From a virus, in IMG/VR virus record IMGVR_UViG_3300033233_000141, positions 1-28,499 of that record: a stretch of 28,499 nucleotides of DNA, one strand, 5' to 3'. Each line of letters begins with the position of its first letter. The stretch's first letter is position 1. The position numbers and the translations under genes were made by a program. Below, piece after piece: positions 933-27,436 of the stretch. The notes under the pieces were generated by a model. The model was not told the origin of the DNA. It did not search any database and saw nothing but the letters and a program-made list of their open reading frames with translations.

Positions 933-1145
933 TCAGTAGGTGTCCGCCAGAGCAGCGGCTTCCTTCGGGAACAGCAGCACGTACGCGGCCGCATCGCGGG
1001 CCGACTTGTTGAAGCGAGGCTTGCTGAGGTGGTCCAGCACTCCGCCGTGTTCCACGCGCATCGCGGCTTCCACGAGGCGCGGGTTCGCGTCCTCCCAGAT
1101 TGTGCCGCTCAGCGCGAACGCGATGAGCTTCTCGTAGCCGCTCAC
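933..1145 (-). CDS. Small hypothetical protein (70 aa)
   Basis: The start is GTG at 1145, whose bases overlap the TGA of the upstream gene (GTGA, 4-base overlap), a typical coupled junction. No good Shine-Dalgarno precedes it, so re-initiation after the upstream gene is likely. The 70-residue product begins MSGYEKLIAFAL, is mostly helical by eye and slightly charged, and has no recognisable motif. Its composition is protein-like, unlike the adjacent non-coding region. It sits between another small unknown gene and the MoxR-type ATPase, so it may belong to the same functional unit. No function is assigned. Confidence 0.65.
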   Translation of the reverse strand: MSGYEKLIAFALSGTIWEDANPRLVEAAMRVEHGGVLDHLSKPRFNKSARDAAAYVLLFPKEAAALADTY

Positions 1146-1390
1146 CGCACACCCACCAGCCGGAACTTCCGGTAGAACTTCTTGACGCTAATCATTTCCG
1201 CCTCGGGCATGTTGGCCGGGGCGTCGGCGTCGTGGAAGTCAACGTAGAGCGTGGACTTGCCCATCACGAGCCGTTCAGCGACGACGCGGTAGCCAGTGAT
1301 GCGGTCCTCGTACAGGCCGTTCAGCAGCACACGCTTCCCGCCAATGCACTCCTGCAACATCGCAACCGGCATCCAGACGTTCGTGGTCAT
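1142..1390 (-). CDS. Small hypothetical protein (82 aa)
   Basis: ATG at 1390 is preceded by GGAGA about 7 bases upstream, in a leader (CTGAACGGAGAACGACA) very like that of the AAA+ gene at 904. The 82-residue product (MTTNVWMPVAML...) mixes beta-like hydrophobic stretches with a basic C-terminus (VKKFYRKFRLVGVR). It resembles small phage proteins of unknown function; I recognise no domain. It is the first gene after the long non-coding stretch 1391-2186, so it may head a separate transcript with the two genes to its left. Confidence 0.65.
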   Translation of the reverse strand: MTTNVWMPVAMLQECIGGKRVLLNGLYEDRITGYRVVAERLVMGKSTLYVDFHDADAPANMPEAEMISVKKFYRKFRLVGVR

Positions 1391-1448
1391 TGTCGTTCTC
1401 CGTTCAGTGGTGTTCCGCCATGCACTTCAAGTGGTGGTCGGTGTGAGT

Positions 1449-1460
1449 CGTACAGCGTTG
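1449..1460 (-). repeat. Direct repeat copy 2 inside the non-coding region (pseudo-leader)
   Basis: This is the second copy of CAACGCTGTACG (first copy 918-929). The following bases also resemble the AAA+ gene leader (ACTCACACCGACCACC against GGAGACACACGACCATG), but the GGAG and ATG are lost. It looks like a degenerate duplicate of a translation leader. Confidence 0.5.
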
Positions 1461-1462
1461 CT

Positions 1463-1500
1463 GCGGAGGTGGTCGTCGCGTAACTCGCTCGCACCTCCGC
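1463..1500. repeat. Inverted repeat, 9-bp perfect stem, 20-base loop
   Basis: GCGGAGGTG at 1463-1471 is the exact reverse complement of CACCTCCGC at 1492-1500. It lies inside the gene-free region and is one of several local stems that suggest a folded transcript. Confidence 0.6.
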
Positions 1501-1711
1501 GCCGCGGACCGCAAGCACGGCGCCAGCCGTGTCCCGCAGAACCGCTCGTTGCCAGACTTCCCTCTCGCCGCCCGTCTCCGGTCGGTGCCCAGTCCGCTCT
1601 GCTCGGCTCTCGCCACTGCGGTGGAACAAGTCGTGCGGCGGTATGCGTTGCGCCCGCGCCGCAGCGACCTGCTTTGAGGTACTCCGTCTGGCTTTCCTGC
1701 CCCGGCCTTTC

Positions 1712-1729
1712 GCGGAGGGCATCCTCCGC
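1712..1729. repeat. Inverted repeat, 7-bp perfect stem, 4-base loop
   Basis: GCGGAGG at 1712-1718 pairs with CCTCCGC at 1723-1729 around a 4-base loop. It lies inside the gene-free region 1391-2186. Confidence 0.6.
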
Positions 1730-2108
1730 TCCCGCGCTCCCCTCCGACCTCGTAGGTCATCGGGCACTCCCGCGCGCTCCTGCCGTTGCTCCGGTTGTCG
1801 GAGGGTCGCCGCTTTGGGCTTCCCGCTGTCGCTCCCTCCTCCGCTGCCCGGCGCCCTACCCGGAGGTCGCCGTTACTGCAAGGGGAACTCTGCTCTCCCT
1901 GCCCCGGGCGCACAAGGTATTTTTATGCTTTGCAGGGTGCTCGCTGGAGACCGAGCATGGCTCGGCCAGTTCGTCACGGTGCGCAGCGCGACCGCATGCA
2001 GCTCGGTCTGGCGCGGGCGTCACCAGCGGGGGCAGGTTTGCAGCTGCCACGGCCCCGCAGAACTCCTGTGATTTCAGCACTCGTGCCCATAAGGCCGAGG
2101 AGCACAGC

Positions 2109-2143
2109 AAGGTGCCGCGAGGCCCTCTGGCGGCCTCCACCTT
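2109..2143 (-). repeat. Two-part hairpin just downstream of the glycosyltransferase gene
   Basis: On the minus strand AAGGTG pairs with CACCTT on the outside, and an inner AGGCC pairs with GGCCT, about 45 bases after the glycosyltransferase stop. No U-run follows, so it is not a classical terminator. It could be the first stem of a structured RNA or an mRNA 3'-end stabiliser. Confidence 0.45.
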
Positions 2144-2186
2144 TAGAATGCAGCGGGCCGGGCCGGGGGGCGCCCGGGAGGCCGGG

Positions 2187-3182
2187 CTAGGGCAGCAGCG
2201 CCTCGGTGAACGGGCGTGGGCCGTGCGCTGCCAGCGCGTGCTGCCCCGCGGCCAGTAGCGCCCGGTGGCGCTCAGGCTCCATCCGCCGCATGAGCACGTC
2301 CGCCAGCATGGCGCCACCGGACACGCCGATGCAGTTCACCTCGTCCACCAGCTCGGACTCCGGCAAACCCAGCCACCGTTCAGCCACGACCGGCACGGTG
2401 CACGCGGCCCATGCTTCAAGTGTGGTGAGCTGCGTGCCTCCGCCATCGCCAGCGATTGTGCTCATGTCCACACCGTAGAGCGCCATCCCGGCCATGTACT
2501 CGCCAGCGCCCGGCTGCCGCGGATACGTGCCCCCGTAAAGGCTGCGCCAGCCAGCGAAGTCGGCGTCGAGTTTGTGGTGTGTGTACATCCTGTTCTCCGC
2601 TCCGAAGATGCGGACGCGCGCGCGCTGCGGCAGAACGAGGTTCGCGCGCAGGATGACGTCGGTGTTCTTATCGAAGTCCAGCCGCGAGTACGCGATGGCG
2701 TGGTACTCGCGCTTCGCAGGGGCGCGCGTCAGCCCCGGGACGTACGGCATGGGGACAAAGCTGATGCGAGGGCCGAGGTCGGCCAACAGCCGCTCGTTGC
2801 TGCGCCGGAATACGACGACACGGTTGGCGCGCGCGAGCACGGCGCGACTCTCTGGGCGCAGCTCGGTAGGGTCGTGGAACACTACCGCGGCCCCGTGCGC
2901 GACGAGAGCCTCGGCCTCGCCCCAATGTTTCGGGTCGGTGGCCATGATGAAGGTGTCCGACGCATGGCACAGCTGCTCGGCCGTCCGCAGCGACACATTC
3001 ATATACGGGAACAGCTCGCCGAACATGCGCTCCTTGCCCTCGGTCTTGGCGCCAACGCGGTACACGTGCACGGGGAACCCGCACCGGATGAGTGACTCGC
3101 GCGCGTGGGCGAGCGCTGTGACCCAGCCTCCGTACATGGCCTCAGCGAGGTAGAACAGCGCTACCGGCCTCCGCTTAATCAC
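2187..3182 (-). CDS. GT-B fold glycosyltransferase of the DNA-modification cassette
   Basis: The start is GTG at 3182, overlapping the dioxygenase stop by 8 bases; the product is 331 residues. The N-terminal half (about 1-150) reads as a Rossmann-like domain and the C-terminal half (about 160-331) as the donor-binding domain. Residues 164-176 (AYSRLDFDKNTDV) correspond to the opening strand of that domain. The stretch 246-266 (DGGGTQLTTLEAW..., E256) matches the acidic and glycine-rich nucleotide-sugar-binding segment of GT4-like enzymes. Phage TET/JBP genes are known to be accompanied by glycosyltransferases that decorate hydroxymethylated bases in DNA. Position and overlap make that the best role here. 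The sugar and linkage cannot be read from sequence. It is unlike T4 alpha- or beta-glucosyltransferase in obvious motifs, and a role in glycosylating a virion protein is the main alternative. Confidence 0.8.
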   Translation of the reverse strand: MIKRRPVALFYLAEAMYGGWVTALAHARESLIRCGFPVHVYRVGAKTEGKERMFGELFPYMNVSLRTAEQLCHASDTFIMATDPKHWGEAEALVAHGAAVVFHDPTELRPESRAVLARANRVVVFRRSNERLLADLGPRISFVPMPYVPGLTRAPAKREYHAIAYSRLDFDKNTDVILRANLVLPQRARVRIFGAENRMYTHHKLDADFAGWRSLYGGTYPRQPGAGEYMAGMALYGVDMSTIAGDGGGTQLTTLEAWAACTVPVVAERWLGLPESELVDEVNCIGVSGGAMLADVLMRRMEPERHRALLAAGQHALAAHGPRPFTEALLP

Positions 3183-4080
3183 GAAGGCGCTGCCCCGGCA
3201 GCCTGCCCTTCGCGCGGGCAAGCTCCTGCTCCGCCGTGCCGCAGGAGACCATGTGCTCGCGGTAGTAGAACACGCAGCTGATGCGCTCGAACCGCTTCTT
3301 GTCGCCCACGATGTCGGTGTTGCCGTGCCACTCGTGCACGTCAGCGAGCAGCAGGTCGCGGTTGCCCATGTCGAACGCCACGCGGTACTTCGGCAGCACG
3401 AAGTGCGAGCCCGAGTAGTGCCCCTTGCGGAACACAGTCATCACGCCGAACCCTTCCTTCAGGTCACCTTGGTCCTTGTGAACGCGCGTGGGGTAGTTGC
3501 GGTTCACCGTGATGGTGGTGAACACCGTGCCCGGGATGATGAAGTCCTTGCTCGTGCGGTCGCACACCGAGAGCTGCGCCGCATAGCGTTCCGGCGCGTG
3601 CTCTGCGAACAGACCGTCCACCGTGCGGATGAACGGCATGGCCTCGTTGAACAGGTCGGCGTGGTCCATGTTGAAGGCGGTCGTGCGGCAGTACGGCATG
3701 CGCGAGTAGCGGTCCATGAAGCCCATCACGCCACTGACCGCGTGCTCCATGCCGTGTGCCTTCAGCTCGGACACGCGGATGGCGCTGGTCTTGCTCTTGG
3801 AGCCGTCCGCCTTGATGCGCACATTCGGACGACGCCCGATTGTGCTGATGCCGCGGTTGGTCGGCGCTCCCTCCATCGCGCGGAACACCGGATAGGCGGA
3901 TAGCGTCTGGTCCTCGGGGAGCGCCTCGCGCAGGTACACGGCCAGCAGGCTGCCGTCAGGCTTCAGCAGCTTCACGCTGCGGCGGAACACAGTGTCGTAG
4001 CTCGCGGGCGCGAGACGCGCGCCGCACAGCGCATCGCACTCCTCGTCCGTCATCCGCGGCTCGACCGTGTAGCTCTGCAC
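3175..4080 (-). CDS. TET/JBP-family 2-oxoglutarate/Fe(II) DNA dioxygenase
   Basis: The start is GTG at 4080 with AGGAG about 8 bases upstream, 2 bases after the ParB-like gene's stop; the product is 301 residues. The C-terminal double-stranded beta-helix carries the iron facial triad: H201-K-D203 in TRVHKDQGD, and H252 in DVHEWHGN. R266 (FERIS) is the likely 2-oxoglutarate ligand. Surrounding signatures (VNRNYPTRVHKD, EGFGVMTVFRKGHYSG, LPKYRVAFDM, RDLLLADVHEWHGN, CVFYYRE) are those I know from JBP/TET-type enzymes including phage members. The family oxidises the methyl group of a pyrimidine in DNA: thymine in JBP, 5-methylcytosine in TET and characterised phage relatives. The following glycosyltransferase suggests the hydroxymethyl product is capped with sugar. 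The family call is strong; the substrate (5-methylcytosine more likely than thymine) is inferred. Confidence 0.88.
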   Translation of the reverse strand: MQSYTVEPRMTDEECDALCGARLAPASYDTVFRRSVKLLKPDGSLLAVYLREALPEDQTLSAYPVFRAMEGAPTNRGISTIGRRPNVRIKADGSKSKTSAIRVSELKAHGMEHAVSGVMGFMDRYSRMPYCRTTAFNMDHADLFNEAMPFIRTVDGLFAEHAPERYAAQLSVCDRTSKDFIIPGTVFTTITVNRNYPTRVHKDQGDLKEGFGVMTVFRKGHYSGSHFVLPKYRVAFDMGNRDLLLADVHEWHGNTDIVGDKKRFERISCVFYYREHMVSCGTAEQELARAKGRLPGQRLRD

Positions 4081-4082
4081 GG

Positions 4083-4754
4083 CTACGACTCCTCGTGGGA
4101 TGCACCCGTCTGGAGGTCGTAACACTCCTTCACGCAGTGGCGCACGGTGTCGGTGATGTTCTCGGTGCCGTAGCGGGCGCGCAGCTCCGCCTCCCACTTG
4201 ATGAACTCGGGGTGCGTCACCGTGTCGAGGAACAGCTGCACCATGCGCACGTGACTGGGCTGGAGCGACGGGTCCACAGGCGCCGCGGCCGTAGCCGCGA
4301 CAGCGAGCGGCGCGTTGGGCGCGGGCATGGCGGGCAACTCCAGCACGACGTGCTCGGTGCGTATGCGGTCGAGCAGCTCATCCAGTTCCGGCGAGGACGA
4401 AGCGGCCACTTGCTCCAGCAGCGTGCGCAGGGCGGTCTGGTCGGCCTCGGCCATCTGGCTGATGGGGTCGGCCGCGAGCAGGTACTTGCCTGCCTCCTCG
4501 TCGTCGAGGTCCACGACGAGCACCGGCACCTGCTGGTCCGGGTCCAGCCCGGCGCGCAGGTGCCCGTCGAGCAGCTCCAGTGAGCCATCCGGCAGCTCGC
4601 GTGCGATGAGCGCGTCGGCCCACCCGATTTCGCCAAGCAGGGCACGTACGGCGCTCTGCTGGGCTTCGGGGTGCTTGCGCCAGTTACGCGGGTTGGCCAG
4701 CAGGTCGCTGGCCTTGACGCGTCGCAGCTCCTTGATGCGGTCCTTCGTTTGCAC
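4083..4754 (-). CDS. ParB/Srx-like N-terminal domain protein
   Basis: The start is GTG at 4754, preceded by GGGGAGG at about 6 bases; the long open extension upstream overlaps the membrane-protein gene and is not believable. The product is 223 residues. Residues 10-70 carry the ParB N-terminal fold: LLANPRNWRKHP, then an EIGWADALIA strand and the ParB-box equivalent LLDGHLR (62-67). Residues 175-215 (HVRMVQLFLDT... TENITDTVRH) match a C-terminal segment I know from phage ParB-like proteins found beside DNA methylases. Such ParB-like domains are recurrent members of phage DNA-modification loci and may guide or regulate modification, or act as a nuclease or nucleotidase. Here the gene directly precedes the TET/JBP dioxygenase. 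A chromosome-partition role is unlikely, as no ParA is visible. Confidence 0.78.
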   Translation of the reverse strand: MQTKDRIKELRRVKASDLLANPRNWRKHPEAQQSAVRALLGEIGWADALIARELPDGSLELLDGHLRAGLDPDQQVPVLVVDLDDEEAGKYLLAADPISQMAEADQTALRTLLEQVAASSSPELDELLDRIRTEHVVLELPAMPAPNAPLAVAATAAAPVDPSLQPSHVRMVQLFLDTVTHPEFIKWEAELRARYGTENITDTVRHCVKECYDLQTGASHEES

Positions 4755-4777
4755 GTCCGGCCTCCCCTGCGATGGGA

Positions 4778-5230
4778 CTACCGCTTCCGCTCCACGTCCT
4801 TCCACAGCTGGAAGCCCAGCTCGGCCCACTCGCGGTGATTCTTCGGTCCCGAGTGCAGGCCGACAGCGATGGCGGTGGCCGCCACGGTGTTCGCCACGAC
4901 GGCCCACCACGGTGCGTGGGGCGCGCTCACGGCCGCTGCGGCTGCGGCGTGGGCCGCGGGCACCAGCGCCGGGAAGAACGCCTGCACGAGGCTCACGAGC
5001 GTGCTGGCGACGAACAGGACGAACGGCACCGCCTTCTTGACGAAGCCCTCGTTCCGGGTCAGCAACTGTGCCCCGGCGAACAGCATGAGCCCGCGCGCGA
5101 GCGGGTTCGCCAGCAGGAGGTTGATTGTGTCCATGACGCTCGGCGCGGCAGCAGCGGCTGCATCCGCGCCCCATGCGACCCCGAACGCGGCAAGCAGGGC
5201 AACGAACGCGACAGTGAGGATGCGCTTCAC
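4778..5230 (-). CDS. Membrane protein of the lysis cassette (putative holin or accessory)
   Basis: I place the start at GTG 5230 because GGGAGGT sits 5-6 bases upstream; an in-frame TTG at 5251 overlaps the previous stop (TTGA) but would carry that Shine-Dalgarno inside the gene. The product is 150 residues. It begins with a signal-like segment (VKRILTVAFVALLAAFG...WGADA, residues 1-24), then hydrophobic segments near 44-57, 67-90 and 107-124, separated by Ala-rich runs, and ends in a charged tail (QLWKDVERKR). Several membrane segments beside an amidase make a holin plausible. No holin family is recognised, and the signal-peptide-like start is unusual for one. Confidence 0.6.
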   Translation of the reverse strand: MKRILTVAFVALLAAFGVAWGADAAAAAAPSVMDTINLLLANPLARGLMLFAGAQLLTRNEGFVKKAVPFVLFVASTLVSLVQAFFPALVPAAHAAAAAAVSAPHAPWWAVVANTVAATAIAVGLHSGPKNHREWAELGFQLWKDVERKR

Positions 5231-5571: not shown

Positions 5572-5996
5572 GCGCACAGCCTCCGCAGTCGGTCGAGGTC
5601 GAACTGTGTGCCCGGGCAGCTCTTGTAAGTCGCATAGTCACGGTGCCCGACGATGTGCTCCACGGTCAGCTTGTACCGCTCCAGCCACGGGCGCACGACG
5701 TACTTGGCGGTGAACTCCAGCAGCGCGTCGCTCGGGGGCGCGAGGTCGTAGTTGCCGACGAGACAGACGTGCAGCGCCAGCTCGTTCATGTGCTGTTCCT
5801 TGCACGCAGCGGCCACCTCGTTCTCGGGGCGCCCGATGAACGCTTCGAGGTGGTCGTTCACCAGCTCCACGCCTGCGTGGTAGCCGATGTCGTGCCAGCC
5901 GAGCCCGATGTGGTAGCGCCGGATGGCCTGCCACGAGACGGTCTGCCCGTCCTCGGTGAGGCTGTGGTGAATCATCACGAATGCGCGCATGCCCAT
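5568..5996 (-). CDS. Endolysin: N-acetylmuramoyl-L-alanine amidase (T7 lysozyme type)
   Basis: ATG 5996 (an alternative ATG lies at 5990) begins 2 bases after the upstream stop, giving 142 residues, close to T7 lysozyme (151). It is a single Amidase_2/PGRP domain. The expected zinc ligands are H10 (MIHHS), H118 (VGHRD) and C127 (KSCPG). K125 aligns with the catalytic Lys of T7 lysozyme and Y39 (GYHAG) with its catalytic Tyr. It should cleave the amide bond between N-acetylmuramate and L-alanine in peptidoglycan. There is no cell-wall-binding domain and no signal peptide, so export would depend on a holin, consistent with the two membrane proteins that follow. Confidence 0.9.
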   Translation of the reverse strand: MGMRAFVMIHHSLTEDGQTVSWQAIRRYHIGLGWHDIGYHAGVELVNDHLEAFIGRPENEVAAACKEQHMNELALHVCLVGNYDLAPPSDALLEFTAKYVVRPWLERYKLTVEHIVGHRDYATYKSCPGTQFDLDRLRRLCA

Positions 5997-5998
5997 GA

Positions 5999-6343
5999 CT
6001 ACGCCCCCAGCGGATTGTCCTTGAAGACCAGCTCGAACTCCGGCCCGAAGTCCACCTTCGCGCTCGCGTCGGTGAAGCGCACGCGCAGCGTGTACGTCCC
6101 GCTCTTGAGCCCGCCGAGGTTCGCATGCGTGAGCAGGCTGCCAAGACCCGCGTACGTGACCTTGCCGTTGGCCGGGTCGGTGAGCGTCATGACGACATCG
6201 AACGGGAACGAGGGAAGGTCCGGGCACTTGCCCTGCATCTTGGCGCTGCCGCCCGACAGATTGATGGGCACGCCCGTGGTCGCGTCCACGAGCGTAACCA
6301 CGAGGTCCTTTCGGCTCGCACCGACCACGACTTCATCAGCCAC
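5999..6343 (-). CDS. BppU N-terminal-like baseplate/fibre adaptor (114 aa)
   Basis: The start is GTG 6343, strongly supported by AGGAGGT about 6 bases upstream. The 114-residue product reads as a single beta-sandwich: VTLVDATTGVPINLSGGSAKMQ, then PANGKVTYAGLG, GTYTLRVRFTDAS and FGPEFELVF. This pattern (a permitted-function strand, a Gly-rich AKM/KF segment, GKVTY, then a xGxY strand with a closing P) is that of BppU N-terminal domains and similar virion adaptors that link fibres to the tail tip. It follows the tail-tip genes and precedes the endolysin, which fits a small structural protein. Exact partners are unknown. Confidence 0.65.
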   Translation of the reverse strand: MADEVVVGASRKDLVVTLVDATTGVPINLSGGSAKMQGKCPDLPSFPFDVVMTLTDPANGKVTYAGLGSLLTHANLGGLKSGTYTLRVRFTDASAKVDFGPEFELVFKDNPLGA

Positions 6344-6353
6344 GAGTCACCTC

Positions 6354-7616
6354 CTAGAACGTGCCCACGAGCGACTGCACCTTCGGGGCGAGGTTCAGCG
6401 CGTGCGTGAGTTCGATGAGGATGGGCTGCGCGCCACTCGGGCCGTGCACCTCCACCCATGCTTCGGCAATCTCGACGCGGACCTGCACACCACCAGTCCA
6501 GTCGTAGTTCAGGGTCCACGTCGGAGACACGAGGTTCGCCCACACGCTGTCCACGCCATTGCCCCACAGGAACGGGTTGGCGAAGGCGCCGAGCGTGATG
6601 AGGTTCGATTCGAGCGTCTGATACATGGCGAGCGTGAGCCCGCCCGAGTTGTCGTACACGGTCGGCTGCGCGAGCAGGGTCTTCGCGCCCATGGCGGTGC
6701 CGAACTTGAAGTTCGTGAGCGTGCCTGTTCCGCCGTTGCGCGTCGCGCGCACTGTGGCGAACAGTTTGATGCCGCTGATGAGACCGCTGCCGTTGATGGC
6801 CGTTGCGCCCTGCACGCCACCGAGGTTCAGCAAGTCGGTGCCGCTTCCGCCCGGGCCGTTGTTCTTCGTGGTGGCCGTGCTGAGGTCTTGGTCGTTGTAC
6901 GTGCCAGTGCCGGAGCGCAGTGTGACGAGCGCACTTGTCGCGTCGAGCGTCGCGGCCTGCGGCACCACTGCCGCGGGGTCGCGCGTTCCCTTGTCCCCAA
7001 CGAGCGCTCCGCCTGCCTCGGGAGCAGCAGCAGCGCTGCCCTGCGAGACGGCGGGCGTGGCCGTGGCGAGGATGTCCTGACCCCACACCTCGACCGTGAA
7101 CTCCGTCATGCGAAGCGTTGCGATGGCGGAGAACGAAACGTTCTCCGCATTGGCAGCCAGCAGGAGGCCGAACTTCTTCGCTGCGATACCGGCAGCCGTC
7201 CACGCGAGTCCTGTCGCGGGGTCCGTCGTCAGGTCGAACTGGTAGCTCGTGTACGAGCTGTCCAGCGATTGCGTCGCAACGAGCGCTCCTCCGATTAGAA
7301 CCTGAAACGAGCCCGAGCCGGTAGGGCTGCTGGGGCCAGTGATGACCACGCGCCCGCGCGCCTTGATGCGCAGGAACTTGATGCCCCCTGTCGCGGCCGT
7401 GATGAACTGTTCCTGCTGGATTGTGGCCGAGCCATCGAGGCTGATGCCGTCGCCCAAGCAACGCAGCTCCTCGTACGTGGTGTCGAGGGCGTCGTGCACT
7501 TCAGCAGCAGTCCACAGACGGTTCTCGCCTCCACCGCCGCTGCCGCTCACGTCAAAGTACGTACCAGCGGGCGGGTTGCTGCTCCACCAGTTCGTGGTCT
7601 TCAGCACGTCGGCCAT
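6354..7616 (-). CDS. Virion tip/fibre protein with two related beta-sandwich regions
   Basis: ATG 7616 follows the previous stop by 3 bases, without a clear Shine-Dalgarno. The product is 420 residues. Residues 78-179 and 282-392 look like two copies of one beta-rich module: each begins GIK, has a glycine-rich turn and an F-containing strand, a central Y...L segment, and ends in VEVWG or VEVHG. A linker of about 100 residues, rich in Ala, Gly and Thr, joins them. Gly/Ser/Thr-rich beta structure in the tip cluster suggests a fibre or a decoration protein of the tail end. No enzymatic motif is visible. Confidence 0.6.
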   Translation of the reverse strand: MADVLKTTNWWSSNPPAGTYFDVSGSGGGGENRLWTAAEVHDALDTTYEELRCLGDGISLDGSATIQQEQFITAATGGIKFLRIKARGRVVITGPSSPTGSGSFQVLIGGALVATQSLDSSYTSYQFDLTTDPATGLAWTAAGIAAKKFGLLLAANAENVSFSAIATLRMTEFTVEVWGQDILATATPAVSQGSAAAAPEAGGALVGDKGTRDPAAVVPQAATLDATSALVTLRSGTGTYNDQDLSTATTKNNGPGGSGTDLLNLGGVQGATAINGSGLISGIKLFATVRATRNGGTGTLTNFKFGTAMGAKTLLAQPTVYDNSGGLTLAMYQTLESNLITLGAFANPFLWGNGVDSVWANLVSPTWTLNYDWTGGVQVRVEIAEAWVEVHGPSGAQPILIELTHALNLAPKVQSLVGTF

Positions 7617-18568: not shown

Positions 18569-20197
18569 TTACGTGATGTTGTAGATGATGCCCACCGGGG
18601 TCACGGTCGCGCTCGGCGTGTAGAAAGCCTTGTAGTCATTGCGGCACGTGGCCACGAACACCGTCTGGTCCACTTCGATGTAGCGGTCCGTGCTGCCGTT
18701 GACGCTGATGCCGCGCCGGGTAGCCAGACCGTACGACTCGCGGTGCGCGCACAGCACGCTGCCCTTGATGTTGTTCGCGGGCGTCGCGTTGTGCACACCG
18801 GTCGCATCCTTCTCCGTCACGAACTCGGAGAGGATGACCGGCGACCCGAAGATGTTCGCCACCTGACCCGAGAGGATGGTCGCGGCGGTACCGAACTTCT
18901 CCAGCGTCAGGACGCTCGCCAGCTTCATGATGGACTTCAGGCCGTGGAAGCCCGTAATCCACGCGAGCGGTGCCGGGGAGGCACCCCACGCGCCCATGTT
19001 GAACTGGAGGTCGAGCATCTTGGCCTCGGTGATGGCCGCCGCGCCCATGTCGAGCTTCGCCGGGTACGAGGCCGTGGTCAGCGCGTGCTTACGCAGACCG
19101 TCCCACGCGCGGCGCACGCCACTCAAGGGATTGAACGTGGCGCCGTCCATCGTCGCGGCGTTGAACTCCCCGTTGATGATAGCGTCCTCGATGCCACGAG
19201 CGAGCACCTTGGCAGCGTTGCCGATGATGAACGAAATCATGGGCACGATGCTGTCCTCGATGAGTTCGCTCGACGCGAACGTGCGGACACCCATCTTCTG
19301 CGCCGTGAACGTGACCTTGTTCGTGGTCGCGGTCGAGGCCGTGATGGGCGCATCCGTGCCGTCGAGGATGGCTTCCGGCATCAGGAACGCGGTCAGGTCT
19401 GAGCCGAGCACCGGCCAGTCCAGCGTCTTGCTCGTCATGGTGACGGGCGTGAACAGCGGCGCGACCTTGCCCCACACCTGCACGAGGTCCATGAGCTGGC
19501 TCGACAGGATGACGGGCACCCAGTTGAGGCCGGACGTGGACGTGGTCTCGTTGAACGAGCGCTCGACCTTCATGGCGTCGCACAGCTCGTTCACGACGCG
19601 CGTGTACTCGGGCCAGCGCTTGTAGTTGCCCATGCGCTGGAGCCGGGCGTTCAGGTCGGGCTTGCGGCTCTCCTGCGGGCACATCAGCGTGTCCAGCACG
19701 AGCAGCTCGTCGTTCAGGGTCTGGAACCGCGTGACGACATCACGCAGCTTCTCGGAGTTGCTGCTGGAGCCCATGCGCTGCACGCGCTCCGTGATGCCGA
19801 GGGCGCGAGCCTGCTGGGCGCCGAGGTGCGACAGCCCGGCCAGCTCGTCCCAGCGCAGCACGGCGATGTTGAAGTAGTCGCGCTGGCGCTTGTGTACGTC
19901 CTCGGGCATGTCGAGCCGGAGGGCGCCGCGTTCCAGCGTGAGCTGCTCGCTGCCACCGCTCAGCGTCGCTGCCTGAGCCTTCATCACCTCGTCGAGGGTC
20001 TGGGTGCGCGCGGCGAGCTTCTTGATGCCCTCGTCGAGCGTGCCCCACTCGTCCTCGGTGATGATGCGCCCGGTCGCCTGCGTGCGGATGAGTTCGTTCA
20101 GGCGGTCGGTGATGTCCTTCGTGTGCTGGCGCAGCCCATCCGCAGACGTGAGGTCTGGCGCGAGCGGCAGCTCCACGATGGCCTTCGGCTTCGTCAT
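18569..20197 (-). CDS. Major capsid protein (HK97 fold) with long N-terminal region
   Basis: ATG 20197 has GGAGGGG about 7-9 bases upstream. The product is 542 residues. Residues 1 to about 190 are mostly helical and charged (GLRQHTKDITDRLNELIRT, EWGTLDEGIKKLAARTQTLDEVMKAQ), as in scaffold or delta domains removed by the prohead protease. The HK97-fold core starts near 215: GLNWVPVILSSQLMDLVQVWGKVAPLFTPV, then the spine and A-domain region (FASSELIEDSIVPMISFIIGNAAKVLARGIEDAIING) and a closing segment (YGLATRRGISVNGSTDRYIEVDQTVFVATCRNDYKAF). Direct order protease then capsid supports the call. There is no separate scaffold gene, so the N-terminal region probably serves as scaffold. Confidence 0.9.
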   Translation of the reverse strand: MTKPKAIVELPLAPDLTSADGLRQHTKDITDRLNELIRTQATGRIITEDEWGTLDEGIKKLAARTQTLDEVMKAQAATLSGGSEQLTLERGALRLDMPEDVHKRQRDYFNIAVLRWDELAGLSHLGAQQARALGITERVQRMGSSSNSEKLRDVVTRFQTLNDELLVLDTLMCPQESRKPDLNARLQRMGNYKRWPEYTRVVNELCDAMKVERSFNETTSTSGLNWVPVILSSQLMDLVQVWGKVAPLFTPVTMTSKTLDWPVLGSDLTAFLMPEAILDGTDAPITASTATTNKVTFTAQKMGVRTFASSELIEDSIVPMISFIIGNAAKVLARGIEDAIINGEFNAATMDGATFNPLSGVRRAWDGLRKHALTTASYPAKLDMGAAAITEAKMLDLQFNMGAWGASPAPLAWITGFHGLKSIMKLASVLTLEKFGTAATILSGQVANIFGSPVILSEFVTEKDATGVHNATPANNIKGSVLCAHRESYGLATRRGISVNGSTDRYIEVDQTVFVATCRNDYKAFYTPSATVTPVGIIYNIT

Positions 20198-21403: not shown

Positions 21404-21564
21404 TAGCGAGTCACGTTCGCCGCAACCGGCGCTCCCTGCGAAAGTGGAGGTTGCCCGCACTTGGGGCACGCAACGCGACCGGCCTTGTCGTGCACGAAGC
21501 TCGTCTCGCAAGGCTTGCACTTATGCACCGGCAGGTACACGGGCGGCGGGCTGACGTCACGCAT
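21403..21564 (-). CDS. Small zinc-ribbon protein (53 aa)
   Basis: ATG 21564 overlaps the portal gene by 8 bases, with GGAGG about 9 bases upstream, and its TAA shares a base with the protease start. The 53-residue product has two CxxC knuckles: C16-x2-C19 (HKCKPCE) and C33-x2-C36 (ACPKCG), separated by 13 residues, a rubredoxin/zinc-ribbon layout. A Pro-rich start (SPPPVYLP) precedes it. Tight coupling on both sides argues that it is a real gene of the head module. Role unknown; nucleic-acid or protein binding during head assembly is possible. Confidence 0.75.
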   Translation of the reverse strand: MRDVSPPPVYLPVHKCKPCETSFVHDKAGRVACPKCGQPPLSQGAPVAANVTR

Positions 21565-23770
21565 TGAGCCATTCCTCCAGCGACTGCGGATGCTTGCCGT
21601 TCTTGCTCGGCGCGGCGCCCTTGAGTCGGCGGGCGATGGCGTCGGGGAGCGGCGCGCTCTCCTGCTGCGAGCCATTATCCACAACGGGCACCAGAGTGCA
21701 ACGGCAGTTGATGACCTCGCCCGCATCGTTGCAGTCGGGGTCGCCGGGGAAGCTGAGCCGGGCGCCGCTGCTGCTCACGAAAACGTCATCGAGCGGCACG
21801 GCGGTGCCGTCGAGCTGCTGATGCGTGTCGCGCACGTGCTCGTCGCCCGCCGTGAGCCATTCCTTCTGCTCCACGACACCACTCTGGCGGTAGCCCTCGA
21901 CCGTGCCGAAGTTGAACGCTGCTGCCGTCTCCGTGCGTGCCACACGCGCCGAGCGCGCGAGCCGGTCCCCGAAGATGGCGTCAACGCGCGCGGTCAGGTC
22001 CCCGAGCGACTCGCCCGCGGCGATGCCCTCGGACAGCGCGTCACGCAGCATGCCGCGCGTGGTGTCGTCAATGTTCTGCACCATCGTCATGGCCTTGTCC
22101 GCGATGAACGAGTTCACGTCGGCAGCATGCAGCGAGAACGCGAGGTCCAGACCCAGCCCAGCGATTGCGTCGTCTCCCGCGTCGGACACGATGCCCCGCA
22201 CGAGGCGCCGCGCCTTGCGGATGGCGTCCGGGTCGTCCAGTTCGCGGATGATGTCGTCGAGTTCCCACGAGCGTGACTGCTCTTTGAGCTTGCTGACCAC
22301 ACGGCGCTGTTGTGCAGCGAAGTGGCGACGCGCGAAGACGTTCACGCGACCCTCGTGCGCGCGGAGGCGCCGGTCTGCCCGCACGCGCGCAAGCTCCGCG
22401 CGAGCGCGCTTCTCCTCAGCGGTGCGCGCCTTGGCGACAGGCGGTGGCACGGGCGCCTTCGGCAGGATGACGGGCGCGGGTGGGTTCTCGGCGTTCTTCA
22501 CGTCGGCCTCGGCCATGGCGCGCGCACTCATGCTGTCGGTGAGCGTCGTGGGCACGAGGATGTCGTCGAGACCCTCCGCCTCCGGCCGCGGCGGCAGACC
22601 CTGATGGTCGCGTGCCTCGGCGCGACTCACATGCGGAGCGCCCGTGGCCTTGTTCCACATTTCGGCCTGCTTCAGCCAAGCCTCGACCATCACGGGGTCG
22701 TTGCTGAAGTCGAACTCGCAGCTGATGTTGAAACCGAACTCGCCCGAGCCGAGCAGCGCCTCGTTCAGCTTCTTGCTGATGCGCATGGCTGCGGGCATCA
22801 CGCCGAAGCGAAGGAACAGCATCATGCTCACCTGAGCCACGTCCGAGTTCAGGCCCGTGCCGCCCTCCATGTCACCGGCCAGCATGGGGGGAATCTTGAA
22901 CAGCTTGTACATGTGCGCGGCCGTGAGCTTCTCGCTCTCGATGAACTGCATTTCCTCCATCGTCAGGCCCGCGCGCGTGAACGCCAGCTTCTTCGGCAGG
23001 AACACCGGGTCCCACGAGTTCTCGATGCCCTGATAGCGCGACTTGAACTGCTTCTTCAGGCGCTCCACGTCATCGTCGTCGAGGGAGTTCTCGGTGGAGT
23101 AGTGGCCCGCGACCATGCCGCCCTTCTGGTAGAACAGCCGCAGGAAGCGCGCGCTGTCGCGCTGCGTCTCGTACGCGAGCCGGAGTGCCTGAAGGCGCGA
23201 CACGCCCACGGCGGCCATTTCCGGGTCGTACCGCTTGAAGTGCACGATTTGGATGCGCGGCACCTTGATGACCTTGCCGCCGTCCTGCACTTCGTACTCG
23301 ACCACGCCACGGCCGGGGCCACGCACCGGCTTCACGCTCGCGGGGTTCAGCATCCAGAACTGCTGGACCTTTTGCGTGCCCATGTAGTCCTTGAACAGGT
23401 AGGCGTTGCCGAACAGCTCCAGCGAACCGACGAGGTCCTCGGTCAGCTCGTAGCCGGTCTGCTCGATGTTCGCTGCCTCCCACAGGTCGCAGATGTTGCC
23501 GGGAGCGCGAGGCAGTTCCTTCTTCGTGTCGCCCTCGCCCACGTACCACTTGAGCGGGGTCGCTGCCAGCGTGGACTGGTACAGCTCGACGCAGAACTGC
23601 ACGGTCGGCACGAGGCGGTACGCCCACGGGTAGTCCACCGCTTCAGCGGGCAGGTTCCATGGCCGATTCAGCAGCCACGGCGCGCCGGACGGCAGGTCGC
23701 CAGCGCTCACGAGGCGCGACTGAATAGGCGCGAGCGCGCGCGCGATGGACCGGACCACCAGACCGCTCAC
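21557..23770 (-). CDS. Portal protein fused to MuF-like head morphogenesis domain
   Basis: The start is GTG 23770, sharing a base with the upstream TAG (TAGTG) and preceded by GGAGG at 5-6 bases. The product is 737 residues. Residues about 30-400 are an HK97-type portal (VPTVQFCVELYQSTLAATPLKWYV, QFWMLNPASVKPV, IVHFKRYDPEMAAVGVSRLQALRLAY, FKIPPMLAGD). A Pro/Ala/Arg-rich linker (about 425-475) leads to a MuF/SPP1 gp7-like domain at about 560-695: RVARTETAAAFNFG (609-622), KEWLTAGDEHVRDTHQQLDG (636-655), PGDP (675-678) and NCRC (688-691). MuF domains are minor head proteins that enter with or process DNA at the portal. Fusion of both on one chain means one MuF copy per portal subunit. Confidence 0.92.
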   Translation of the reverse strand: MSGLVVRSIARALAPIQSRLVSAGDLPSGAPWLLNRPWNLPAEAVDYPWAYRLVPTVQFCVELYQSTLAATPLKWYVGEGDTKKELPRAPGNICDLWEAANIEQTGYELTEDLVGSLELFGNAYLFKDYMGTQKVQQFWMLNPASVKPVRGPGRGVVEYEVQDGGKVIKVPRIQIVHFKRYDPEMAAVGVSRLQALRLAYETQRDSARFLRLFYQKGGMVAGHYSTENSLDDDDVERLKKQFKSRYQGIENSWDPVFLPKKLAFTRAGLTMEEMQFIESEKLTAAHMYKLFKIPPMLAGDMEGGTGLNSDVAQVSMMLFLRFGVMPAAMRISKKLNEALLGSGEFGFNISCEFDFSNDPVMVEAWLKQAEMWNKATGAPHVSRAEARDHQGLPPRPEAEGLDDILVPTTLTDSMSARAMAEADVKNAENPPAPVILPKAPVPPPVAKARTAEEKRARAELARVRADRRLRAHEGRVNVFARRHFAAQQRRVVSKLKEQSRSWELDDIIRELDDPDAIRKARRLVRGIVSDAGDDAIAGLGLDLAFSLHAADVNSFIADKAMTMVQNIDDTTRGMLRDALSEGIAAGESLGDLTARVDAIFGDRLARSARVARTETAAAFNFGTVEGYRQSGVVEQKEWLTAGDEHVRDTHQQLDGTAVPLDDVFVSSSGARLSFPGDPDCNDAGEVINCRCTLVPVVDNGSQQESAPLPDAIARRLKGAAPSKNGKHPQSLEEWLNA

Positions 23771-25753: not shown

Positions 25754-25827
25754 TGGTAGCGGCGGCCGGACTTGCACCGGCAACCTCGCGGGTATGAACC
25801 GCGCGCTCTGCGTTGAGCTACGCCGCA
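25754..25827 (-). tRNA. tRNA with anticodon CAT (Met or Ile2), atypical
   Basis: A 74-base cloverleaf can be drawn on the minus strand. The acceptor has 6 pairs (GCGGCG with CGCCGC) plus a T1-T72 mismatch. The D arm is GCTC/GAGC with a 6-base loop, the anticodon arm CGCGG TTCATAC CCGCG (anticodon at 25794-25796), the variable loop AGGTT, the T arm GCCGG/CCGGC with loop TGCAAGT, and discriminator A plus an encoded CCA (25754-25756) complete it. The D loop AACGCA lacks the usual GG pair and the T loop lacks TTC, so tertiary contacts may be weak. The 1-72 mismatch recalls initiator tRNA, but the anticodon stem lacks the three G-C pairs of initiators. An Ile2 identity would need lysidine modification by the host. 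Confidence 0.75.
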
Positions 25828-25936: not shown

Positions 25937-27436
25937 CTACTTCAGCAGCGTGAGGTCGCCCGTGCCGTTCATGCGGAACGTGTGCAGTGCGTACCGCGCG
26001 GCATCGTAGCCGTGGTCGTCGCCCTTCAGGTGCTCCTCCGGCTGGGTCTTGTTCTTGCCCGAGGTGGGCGTGGGGCGGAACTGGAGCAGCGGGAACTCCT
26101 CCCACGTGCAGGTCGGCTTGCCGTTGTGCAGCAGCCGCGGGTCGGGAGGCTCGCAACGAGCGTCGCGCACGAAGTACATGCGTGCGGTTACCTCGTTGGT
26201 GACCGGGTTCAGGCGAGGGGCCAGCGCCTCGTAGAGCGTCTGGTAGCCTGCGTCCCGGTCCTTGATGGCGGGGATGGTGCTGAAGCCCAAGCCGTCGAGC
26301 TGCGCGCGCGACTCGGCATCGGCGTGGTCGGCTGGGCTCATGCTGAAGGACATGCGTTCCAGCAGCGGCATGCGTGGCCAGCTCGTGGCGTTGTGCCGCG
26401 CGATGGTGGCGTTCAGCGTGGTAAGCTCGATGGCCTCGCATGCCTTGGCCACCTTGGCGTGGTCAGCCACGAGCCGCTGCGTGCGGTAGATTTCCCGGTA
26501 CAGCCAGAACACTCCCTCCGGGGAACGCGCCCACCACTGGAGCACGAACGGCGCCGCGTAGCCGAAGTCCACGCTGCGCACACGCTTCCAGTTCGGCGGA
26601 GGGAAGCCACCCCACTCGGCCCATTCGGCAGGGCGCGCGCGCACATGGAAGCGCTCGTCGAACTTGTCGAACAACGCACCCTCGAACGCGACCCACCGGC
26701 CGAGCACGTAGCGGTCGCGGTAGCCACCCGTATATGATTGCAGCAGCATCTGGTAGTCGTGTTCGAGGTTCTCGATGTTGTCCGCACCACCGGCCACGAC
26801 GACCTCGCGCAGCGGCGCGCCCGCGGGCACCTGCGTCACACCGTCGAGAAGCGTGGTGGGCTCGATGCTCCACTCGATGTGCGAGCCGAGGTCGGGCCGG
26901 AACCGCTTGAACAGGAAGTGACTGGGCGACGCGGGGTTACAGAAGCCAGCGAGCTGCCGGTACGGTCCGACGCGGTGGCGCAGTCGCCCGAGGATGGCGT
27001 TCCACTCCTCCTCCTCCAGCTCCTCGCACTGGTCCACGAGCGCGAGGTCGAACTCGCCGGAGCGCAGCTTGCCCGGGTTGTCGAGCCCCACGCACAGGAT
27101 GCGGCTGCCGTTCCGGTAGTGGAGGGTGCTGCCGCCGTCGGCCGACACCCGCCAGCCCCACGCGCGCTCGTGGGCGCTCACGGTCTGCTCCAGCAGGACG
27201 GGCAGCGTGGTCTGGCCTAGGTCGGTGCGCCGCTTGCGCGCGATGACCACGCGGGCGCCGGGGAACGCGCGGCACCGGTAGTCGGCCTTCTCGCACAGGG
27301 TGCGGCTCTTGCTGCTGCCGTAGCGCCCCGAGTACAGCAGCTGCGGCACGGGGCTCAGGATGCAACGGCGCTGCGCCCAGCTGTTGGGGCGGAAGCGCTG
27401 CTGCCCGCCGGGGGAGGGCGCGAGTGCCGTGCTCAC
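25937..27436 (-). CDS. terL: Terminase large subunit
   Basis: ATG 27436 overlaps the preceding stop (ATGA). The 499-residue product has both terminase domains. The ATPase has a Walker A-like SGRYGSSKS (36-44, K43), a Walker B LALVDQCEEL (131-140, D135 with catalytic Glu near 138-139) and a coupling motif in GFCNPAS (164-170). The RNase H-like nuclease has D290 (VRSVDFGYA), an acidic motif near D370-D373 (SPADHAD) and D473/D474 with D478 (GDDHGYDAARYAL). It packages DNA into the prohead using ATP and cuts the concatemer. The C-terminal half fits headful- or site-specific-type enzymes; the mode is not readable here. It stands between the probable small terminase and the tRNA/accessory patch. 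Confidence 0.93.
   Translation of the reverse strand: MSTALAPSPGGQQRFRPNSWAQRRCILSPVPQLLYSGRYGSSKSRTLCEKADYRCRAFPGARVVIARKRRTDLGQTTLPVLLEQTVSAHERAWGWRVSADGGSTLHYRNGSRILCVGLDNPGKLRSGEFDLALVDQCEELEEEEWNAILGRLRHRVGPYRQLAGFCNPASPSHFLFKRFRPDLGSHIEWSIEPTTLLDGVTQVPAGAPLREVVVAGGADNIENLEHDYQMLLQSYTGGYRDRYVLGRWVAFEGALFDKFDERFHVRARPAEWAEWGGFPPPNWKRVRSVDFGYAAPFVLQWWARSPEGVFWLYREIYRTQRLVADHAKVAKACEAIELTTLNATIARHNATSWPRMPLLERMSFSMSPADHADAESRAQLDGLGFSTIPAIKDRDAGYQTLYEALAPRLNPVTNEVTARMYFVRDARCEPPDPRLLHNGKPTCTWEEFPLLQFRPTPTSGKNKTQPEEHLKGDDHGYDAARYALHTFRMNGTGDLTLLK

Follow-up and report, generated by a model that had tools for sequence, protein, structure and literature searches.

The DNA analysed here, record IMGVR_UViG_3300033233_000141 from an uncultured phage, was taken at its full length of 28,499 bases (hereafter the window). 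A codon-usage gene finder, trained on the record's own genes, placed every gene on the minus strand. Along that strand, the genes for the terminase large subunit (25937-27436), the portal (21557-23770) and the major head protein (18569-20197) are followed by tail genes, then by a set of ParB-like, TET/JBP and glycosyltransferase-like genes, a gap, two small ORFs and an AAA ATPase gene. The sole tRNA of the window, a tRNA-Met (CAT) at 25754-25827 on the minus strand, is located near the terminase gene; a tRNA-Met also follows the terminase gene in the related phage G001 described below (L103 15509-15581) and occupies a different place in another phage, G003 (L105 8325-8397).

The neighbours of the gap are those named in the earlier note, with an AAA+ gene on one side and putative DNA-modification genes on the other. 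The TET/JBP gene matched PF12851 (E 1.7e-24), while the glycosyltransferase-like gene, the last before the gap (2187-3221, minus strand), gave a weak match to PF13524 (E 0.0012) that at 19.2 bits stays below the cut-off of 25. Past the gap, an 82-aa ORF without family (1142-1390, minus strand) is followed on the same strand by a 70-aa ORF (933-1145) and by a MoxR-like AAA ATPase (2-994; PF07728, E 2.6e-6; phrog_1297, E 1.3e-38), which is truncated at the record end and likely starts near 904. The phage lineage is probably a DNA-modifying one. The ParB-like/TET/JBP/glycosyltransferase-like cassette (2187-5174) is unmatched in G001, where different genes continue the late operon beyond the homologues of window positions 5577-6328; the cassette has the look of an interchangeable block for DNA modification. 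On either side of the gap, the two adjoining genes each contain one copy of a 15-nt direct repeat (1271-1285 and 2376-2390, 93% alike), probably by chance.

A gene-free gap in two parts

The gap extends from 1391 to 2186 (796 nt) and was left empty by the gene finder, which firmly upholds its earlier description as gene-free. It is the only non-coding stretch longer than 283 nt in the 28.5-kb record. The surrounding operon had been called gapless, which is nearly right: the other gaps above 150 nt measure 283 nt (the one holding the tRNA-Met), 166 nt and 153 nt. Six long ORFs span the gap, but their GC content hardly differs between the three codon positions, whereas the third position reaches about 0.8-0.93 in most genes. 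Period-3 power was 0.84 in 1391-1913 and 1.6 in 1914-2186, compared with a lowest value of 5.2 among 30 coding windows. None of the ORFs crossing the gap matched Pfam, and their best PHROG match had an E value of 0.18, so the absence of a protein-like frame noted before also stands.

Analysis of base composition divided the gap in two. The minus strand of 1391-1915 is purine-rich, with 9.5% U and 21.5% A against 15.7% and 17.6% in genes, while 1916-2186 is of ordinary composition. Over 500-nt windows of the record's minus strand, purine content and A/(A+T) peaked and U was lowest in the windows that overlap 1391-1915. A composition change point was placed at 1945-1931, with a score of 8.4 that is below the shuffle maximum of 10.3. 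On the basis of composition, period-3 and folding, the minus strand of 1391-1913 was delimited as the candidate for a structured, non-coding leader RNA in front of the AAA operon; it measures about 520 nt, its 5′ end being uncertain between about 1913 and 1945.

The remainder, 1914-2186 on the minus strand, is a spacer after the glycosyltransferase-like gene with no structure signal of its own (fold z -0.28), and probably corresponds to the end of the late operon and a promoter region. A consensus scan of 1350-2250 detected no sigma-70 promoter and no intrinsic terminator. An A/T-rich spot (1915-1930, minus strand; A reaches 30% in 1960-1921) sits at the candidate's 5′ edge and contains GCATAAAAATACC at 1928-1916; judged from its letters, it is a possible -10 element, with no -35 seen and a negative consensus scan. 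Just upstream, an imperfect inverted repeat (1939-2018, minus strand; arms 1939-1956 and 2001-2018, 78% alike) competes with a small hairpin at 1951-1965 on the same strand and could be an operator or a terminator. Group II introns start with GUGYG, a motif that the GTGCG at 1913 resembles, but no Rfam model of group I or group II introns matched in the window.

Folding of the candidate RNA

The gap had been described as hairpin-dense, which applies in a mild sense: hairpins are moderately enriched, but their density is just modestly above chance. Nine perfect hairpins of at least 5 bp with loops of 3-8 nt were counted in the gap, against a mean of 5.6 in shuffles (20 of 200 reach nine) and a mean of 5.2, with a maximum of 11, in 31 coding windows. 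With stems of at least 6 bp, the count was five, compared with a shuffle mean of 1.8 (5/200 reach five) and a coding maximum of five.

Over the whole gap, the minus strand gave a fold z of -1.57, the plus strand one of +0.33. The signal comes from the U-poor part: the minus strand of 1391-1912 folds better than its dinucleotide shuffles (z -2.6; 0/60), while the plus strand is ordinary (-0.14), and a slightly longer version, 1391-1920, gave -2.77 on the minus strand (1/100 shuffles). By comparison, 23 coding windows of 400 nt from this phage and G001 had a mean z of -0.46 and a minimum of -1.96. Within the stretch, 150-nt windows were mostly unremarkable and 1551-1700 alone reached -3.3, a value exceeded by background windows (down to -4.3), so that the fold signal rests on longer-range pairing.

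Thirteen helices of at least 4 bp were predicted with a mean pair probability above 0.75, all on the minus strand. They include a perfect 7-bp hairpin with a 4-nt loop at 1712-1729 (predicted probability 0.99), a perfect helix of 9 bp that closes an apical part of 20 nt at 1463-1500 (0.99) and, at 1504-1545, three stacked helices pairing 1542-1545 with 1504-1507, 1533-1539 with 1509-1515, and 1526-1531 with 1516-1521 (0.99-1.0). A long-range helix between 1686-1692 and 1551-1557 (1.0) encloses a predicted multibranch domain (1551-1692), in which a stacked helix of 9 bp and 7 bp spans 1625-1673 (0.94 and 0.99). Two G-quadruplex patterns in this leader are not above shuffles (39/200), and the G001 leader has none. 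The C-over-G profile, with a maximum of 0.28 that is within the range of genes, gave no clear sign of Rho evasion.

A related phage with a similar stretch

A portal search yielded 16 loci, of which seven showed 64-68% identity. Among 12 records searched for the AAA protein, one carries it (E 2.7e-41): IMGVR_UViG_3300046747_000284, here G001, of 37,372 bases, whose portal and AAA proteins are 68% and 35% identical to those of the window. G001 has an 850-nt gap (5702-6551) directly upstream of its AAA operon. The operon occupies the minus strand there and the late genes face the other way, whereas both share one strand in the window. The gap is thus kept at the 5′ end of the AAA operon despite a differing orientation relative to the late genes. 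On the minus strand of G001, 5702-6200 (499 nt) contains 6.2% U and 22.4% A, shows no period-3 (0.52) and has two or three stops in each of the three sense frames. It folds with a z of -2.23 on the sense strand (2/60 shuffles) and -1.51 on the opposite strand, and a slightly shorter version, 5702-6190, gave -2.91. The stretch begins just after a sigma-70-like promoter, TTGACT-18-TACATT, ending at 6204 (shuffle mean 0.1), and the composition change point at 6171-6191 scored 15.8, above all 100 shuffles (maximum 9.3). The G001 operon (L103 179-4736) unites MoxR-like AAA with DUF2201 metallopeptidase/VWA genes; its VWA protein was matched only distantly, by two of 50,697 phage records.

Another phage, G006, shares two small proteins of the AAA operon and has a leader of about 90 nt after TTGACT-17-TAGGCT, a promoter read by eye; the long leader is therefore not universal. 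Elsewhere in G006, an A/T-rich non-coding gap (L107 4791-5149) in an otherwise GC-rich phage contains TTATCCACA-like sequences that we take to be DnaA boxes, and is possibly a replication origin.

A total of 56,414 windows of 399 nt from all loci collected, overlapping G001 copies included, were screened for A/(A+T) of at least 0.68 on one strand with period-3 below 2. The stretches of the window and of G001 ranked first and second (0.81 and 0.73), the next value being 0.715. Of the other A-skewed hits, the two inspected, L114 and L025, were largely covered by ORFs.

The two leaders do not resemble each other significantly in sequence: under four alignment settings 50, 56, 114 and 55 of 1000 shuffles reached the observed score, and in a further test 132 of 1000 did. 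A 75-nt match of 68% between them (relaxed blastn, E 0.002) was dropped, since the shuffles show such scores not to be significant. Translated-frame matches, with E values down to 1.8e-6 when composition correction was off, were read as shared composition because stops occur in the best pair and similar scores were reached by several frame pairs. A structure-aware alignment gave a shared base-pair probability of 16.7 compared with 7.4-7.7 in shuffles, 9/200 of which reach 16.7; the alignment score itself is ordinary (reached by 9/100 and 60/100 shuffles). The excess of shared pairs is no more than suggestive.

Searches elsewhere returned little. Blastn of the gap gave one 31-nt match among phages (E 0.8) and one match among plasmids, 37 nt of a Burkholderia replicon (89%, E 5e-3) to the upstream part of the gap (1982-2018); that place on the replicon holds no listed gene. 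The 74 loci from the TET-JBP and glycosyltransferase searches showed no match to the gap below E 1.5, and six of 15 related records showed short ones at E of at most 1 (the best, of 34 nt, at 2.7e-4), attributed to fortuitous resemblance of GC-rich DNA. In chosen subsets of the loci, the window's leader had one 23-nt match among 39 records (E 0.01) and the G001 leader none among 44. Scans with the AAA, DUF2201 and phrog_10048-type proteins and of terminase in genomes brought up no additional phage with this region, and the gene table of Mx4 has no comparable gap beside its matching gene. At gathering score, Rfam matched only the tRNA in the whole window; with hits accepted up to E 10, 1300-2300 gave two chance-level hits, to families other than ROOL, GOLLD and OLE, and the G001 stretch gave three of the same sort. 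A thin search of the open-access literature returned no description of such a leader.

A candidate leader RNA of the AAA operon

Of the three origins proposed earlier for the gap (a new RNA, a replication or packaging site, a decayed gene), a new RNA is the best supported, for about 520 nt of the minus strand and not for the whole 800 nt. Since a related phage has the same odd composition at the same place, this part of the gap is probably DNA for a folded RNA of about 500 bases. At somewhat better than even odds (roughly 0.52), we read 1391-1913 as a folded, non-coding RNA of about 520 nt leading the transcript of the MoxR-type AAA operon. Transcription would start in or near the A/T-rich spot (1915-1930), cross the U-poor stretch (about 1913 to 1391) and enter the small ORF at 1390. 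The nascent folded leader would then act in cis on the polymerase, or protect the untranslated 5′ end, allowing read-through of the operon, in a mode likened to a long put-type or stabilising leader. Transcription of the stretch, its linkage to the AAA genes in a single transcript and its activity are all inferences. A function in cis, on transcription or on transcript stability, seems most likely given the position of the stretch, its strand specificity and the absence of an intrinsic terminator between it and the ORF in the consensus scan; a role in trans is the main alternative.

RNAs of this general kind are already known, and the present one is a candidate new member. As outlined in PMC9378689, the put RNA of phage HK022 is a folded, cis-acting antitermination element of about 70 nt with two stem-loops, located downstream of an early promoter and working without a dedicated protein. 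The cis folded-leader mode is, by analogy, the one proposed here; the candidate leader, at about 520 nt, is far longer than the two-stem put RNA, and a promoter in the corresponding place was recognised in G001 but not in the window. ROOL and GOLLD are presented in PMC12286853 as large folded non-coding phage RNAs of unassigned function, often near tRNA islands. The candidate resembles them as a large, non-coding phage RNA with predicted folding, but it matches none of the Rfam covariance models of ROOL, GOLLD and OLE, is shorter than GOLLD, is placed at the head of an operon and has no adjacent tRNA, the window containing a single, distant tRNA-Met. It is doubtful, though conceivable, that the two stretches represent a new class of ornate, U-poor RNAs of about 500 nt belonging to MoxR AAA/DUF2201 VWA operons, acting either in an RNA-protein machine or as a cis antitermination leader far larger than put.

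Among the competing explanations, the leader reading must be weighed against a spacer without function, in which a promoter and operator region precedes a long untranslated 5′ end, the skew results from mutation bias and the folding from GC-rich composition. U-depletion can indeed come from strand mutation bias without function, which counts against a leader, and the modest hairpin excess, the lack of sequence conservation between the two phages, the 90 nt that suffice in G006 and the knowledge of the long form from two cases only all fit such a spacer. It is nevertheless an unlikely one, as the fold z values of both leaders lie beyond all 23 coding windows, with strand specificity in the window, and about 500 nt have been retained in two phages whose AAA proteins are only 35% identical. 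A separate large RNA acting in trans as a scaffold, cage or RNA-protein partner, in the manner of ROOL and GOLLD, and merely sited where the AAA operon begins, would account for the size, extensive predicted folding, purine richness and non-coding nature of the stretch, and phage RNAs of this kind with no assigned function are described (PMC12286853). This too is improbable: neither phage yielded a noteworthy hit in Rfam at E values up to 10, the ORF is preceded by neither a terminator nor a second boundary, and the tRNA is 24 kb away.

The remaining possibilities are weaker still. An origin of replication, perhaps RNA-primed as in non-RepA mycobacteriophage prophages, is quite unlikely. The RNA-based prophage origins of Alma and LadyBird, 400-500-nt non-coding regions according to PMC7157519, are of similar size, and the Alma RNA folds well (z -3.4) without period-3 (0.35); they lie, however, beside parABS and serve a temperate prophage, and the Alma RNA, with 16.9% U, is not U-poor as the candidate is and folds well on both strands. 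In the window, the only element of this kind was a protein with a ParB-like domain, encoded next to the TET/JBP gene, with no ParA among the scanned proteins, and no iterons were found; in G006, the A/T-rich gap with DnaA-like boxes sits elsewhere. A decayed or unusual protein gene is very improbable, even though a 169-aa ORF (1404-1913, minus strand) covers exactly the stretch: few stops are expected by chance in U-poor sequence, no residual period-3, codon-position bias, family match or homologous protein was found, and the corresponding G001 stretch is equally non-coding, with stops in every sense frame. A packaging site (pac or cos) would be non-coding and bear hairpins, but with the terminase gene 24 kb distant and the G001 gap within a divergent control region it can practically be set aside; for neither origin nor packaging site did the gap offer a positive sign.

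Should transcription and conservation of the candidate leader be borne out, an uncultured, probably DNA-modifying phage lineage would gain a large folded RNA, linked to a widespread and unexplained type of phage gene, the MoxR-like ATPase, accompanied in G001 by a DUF2201/VWA partner. Strand-specific depletion of U without a coding rhythm would then also provide a cheap means of finding such RNAs in single metagenomic phages.
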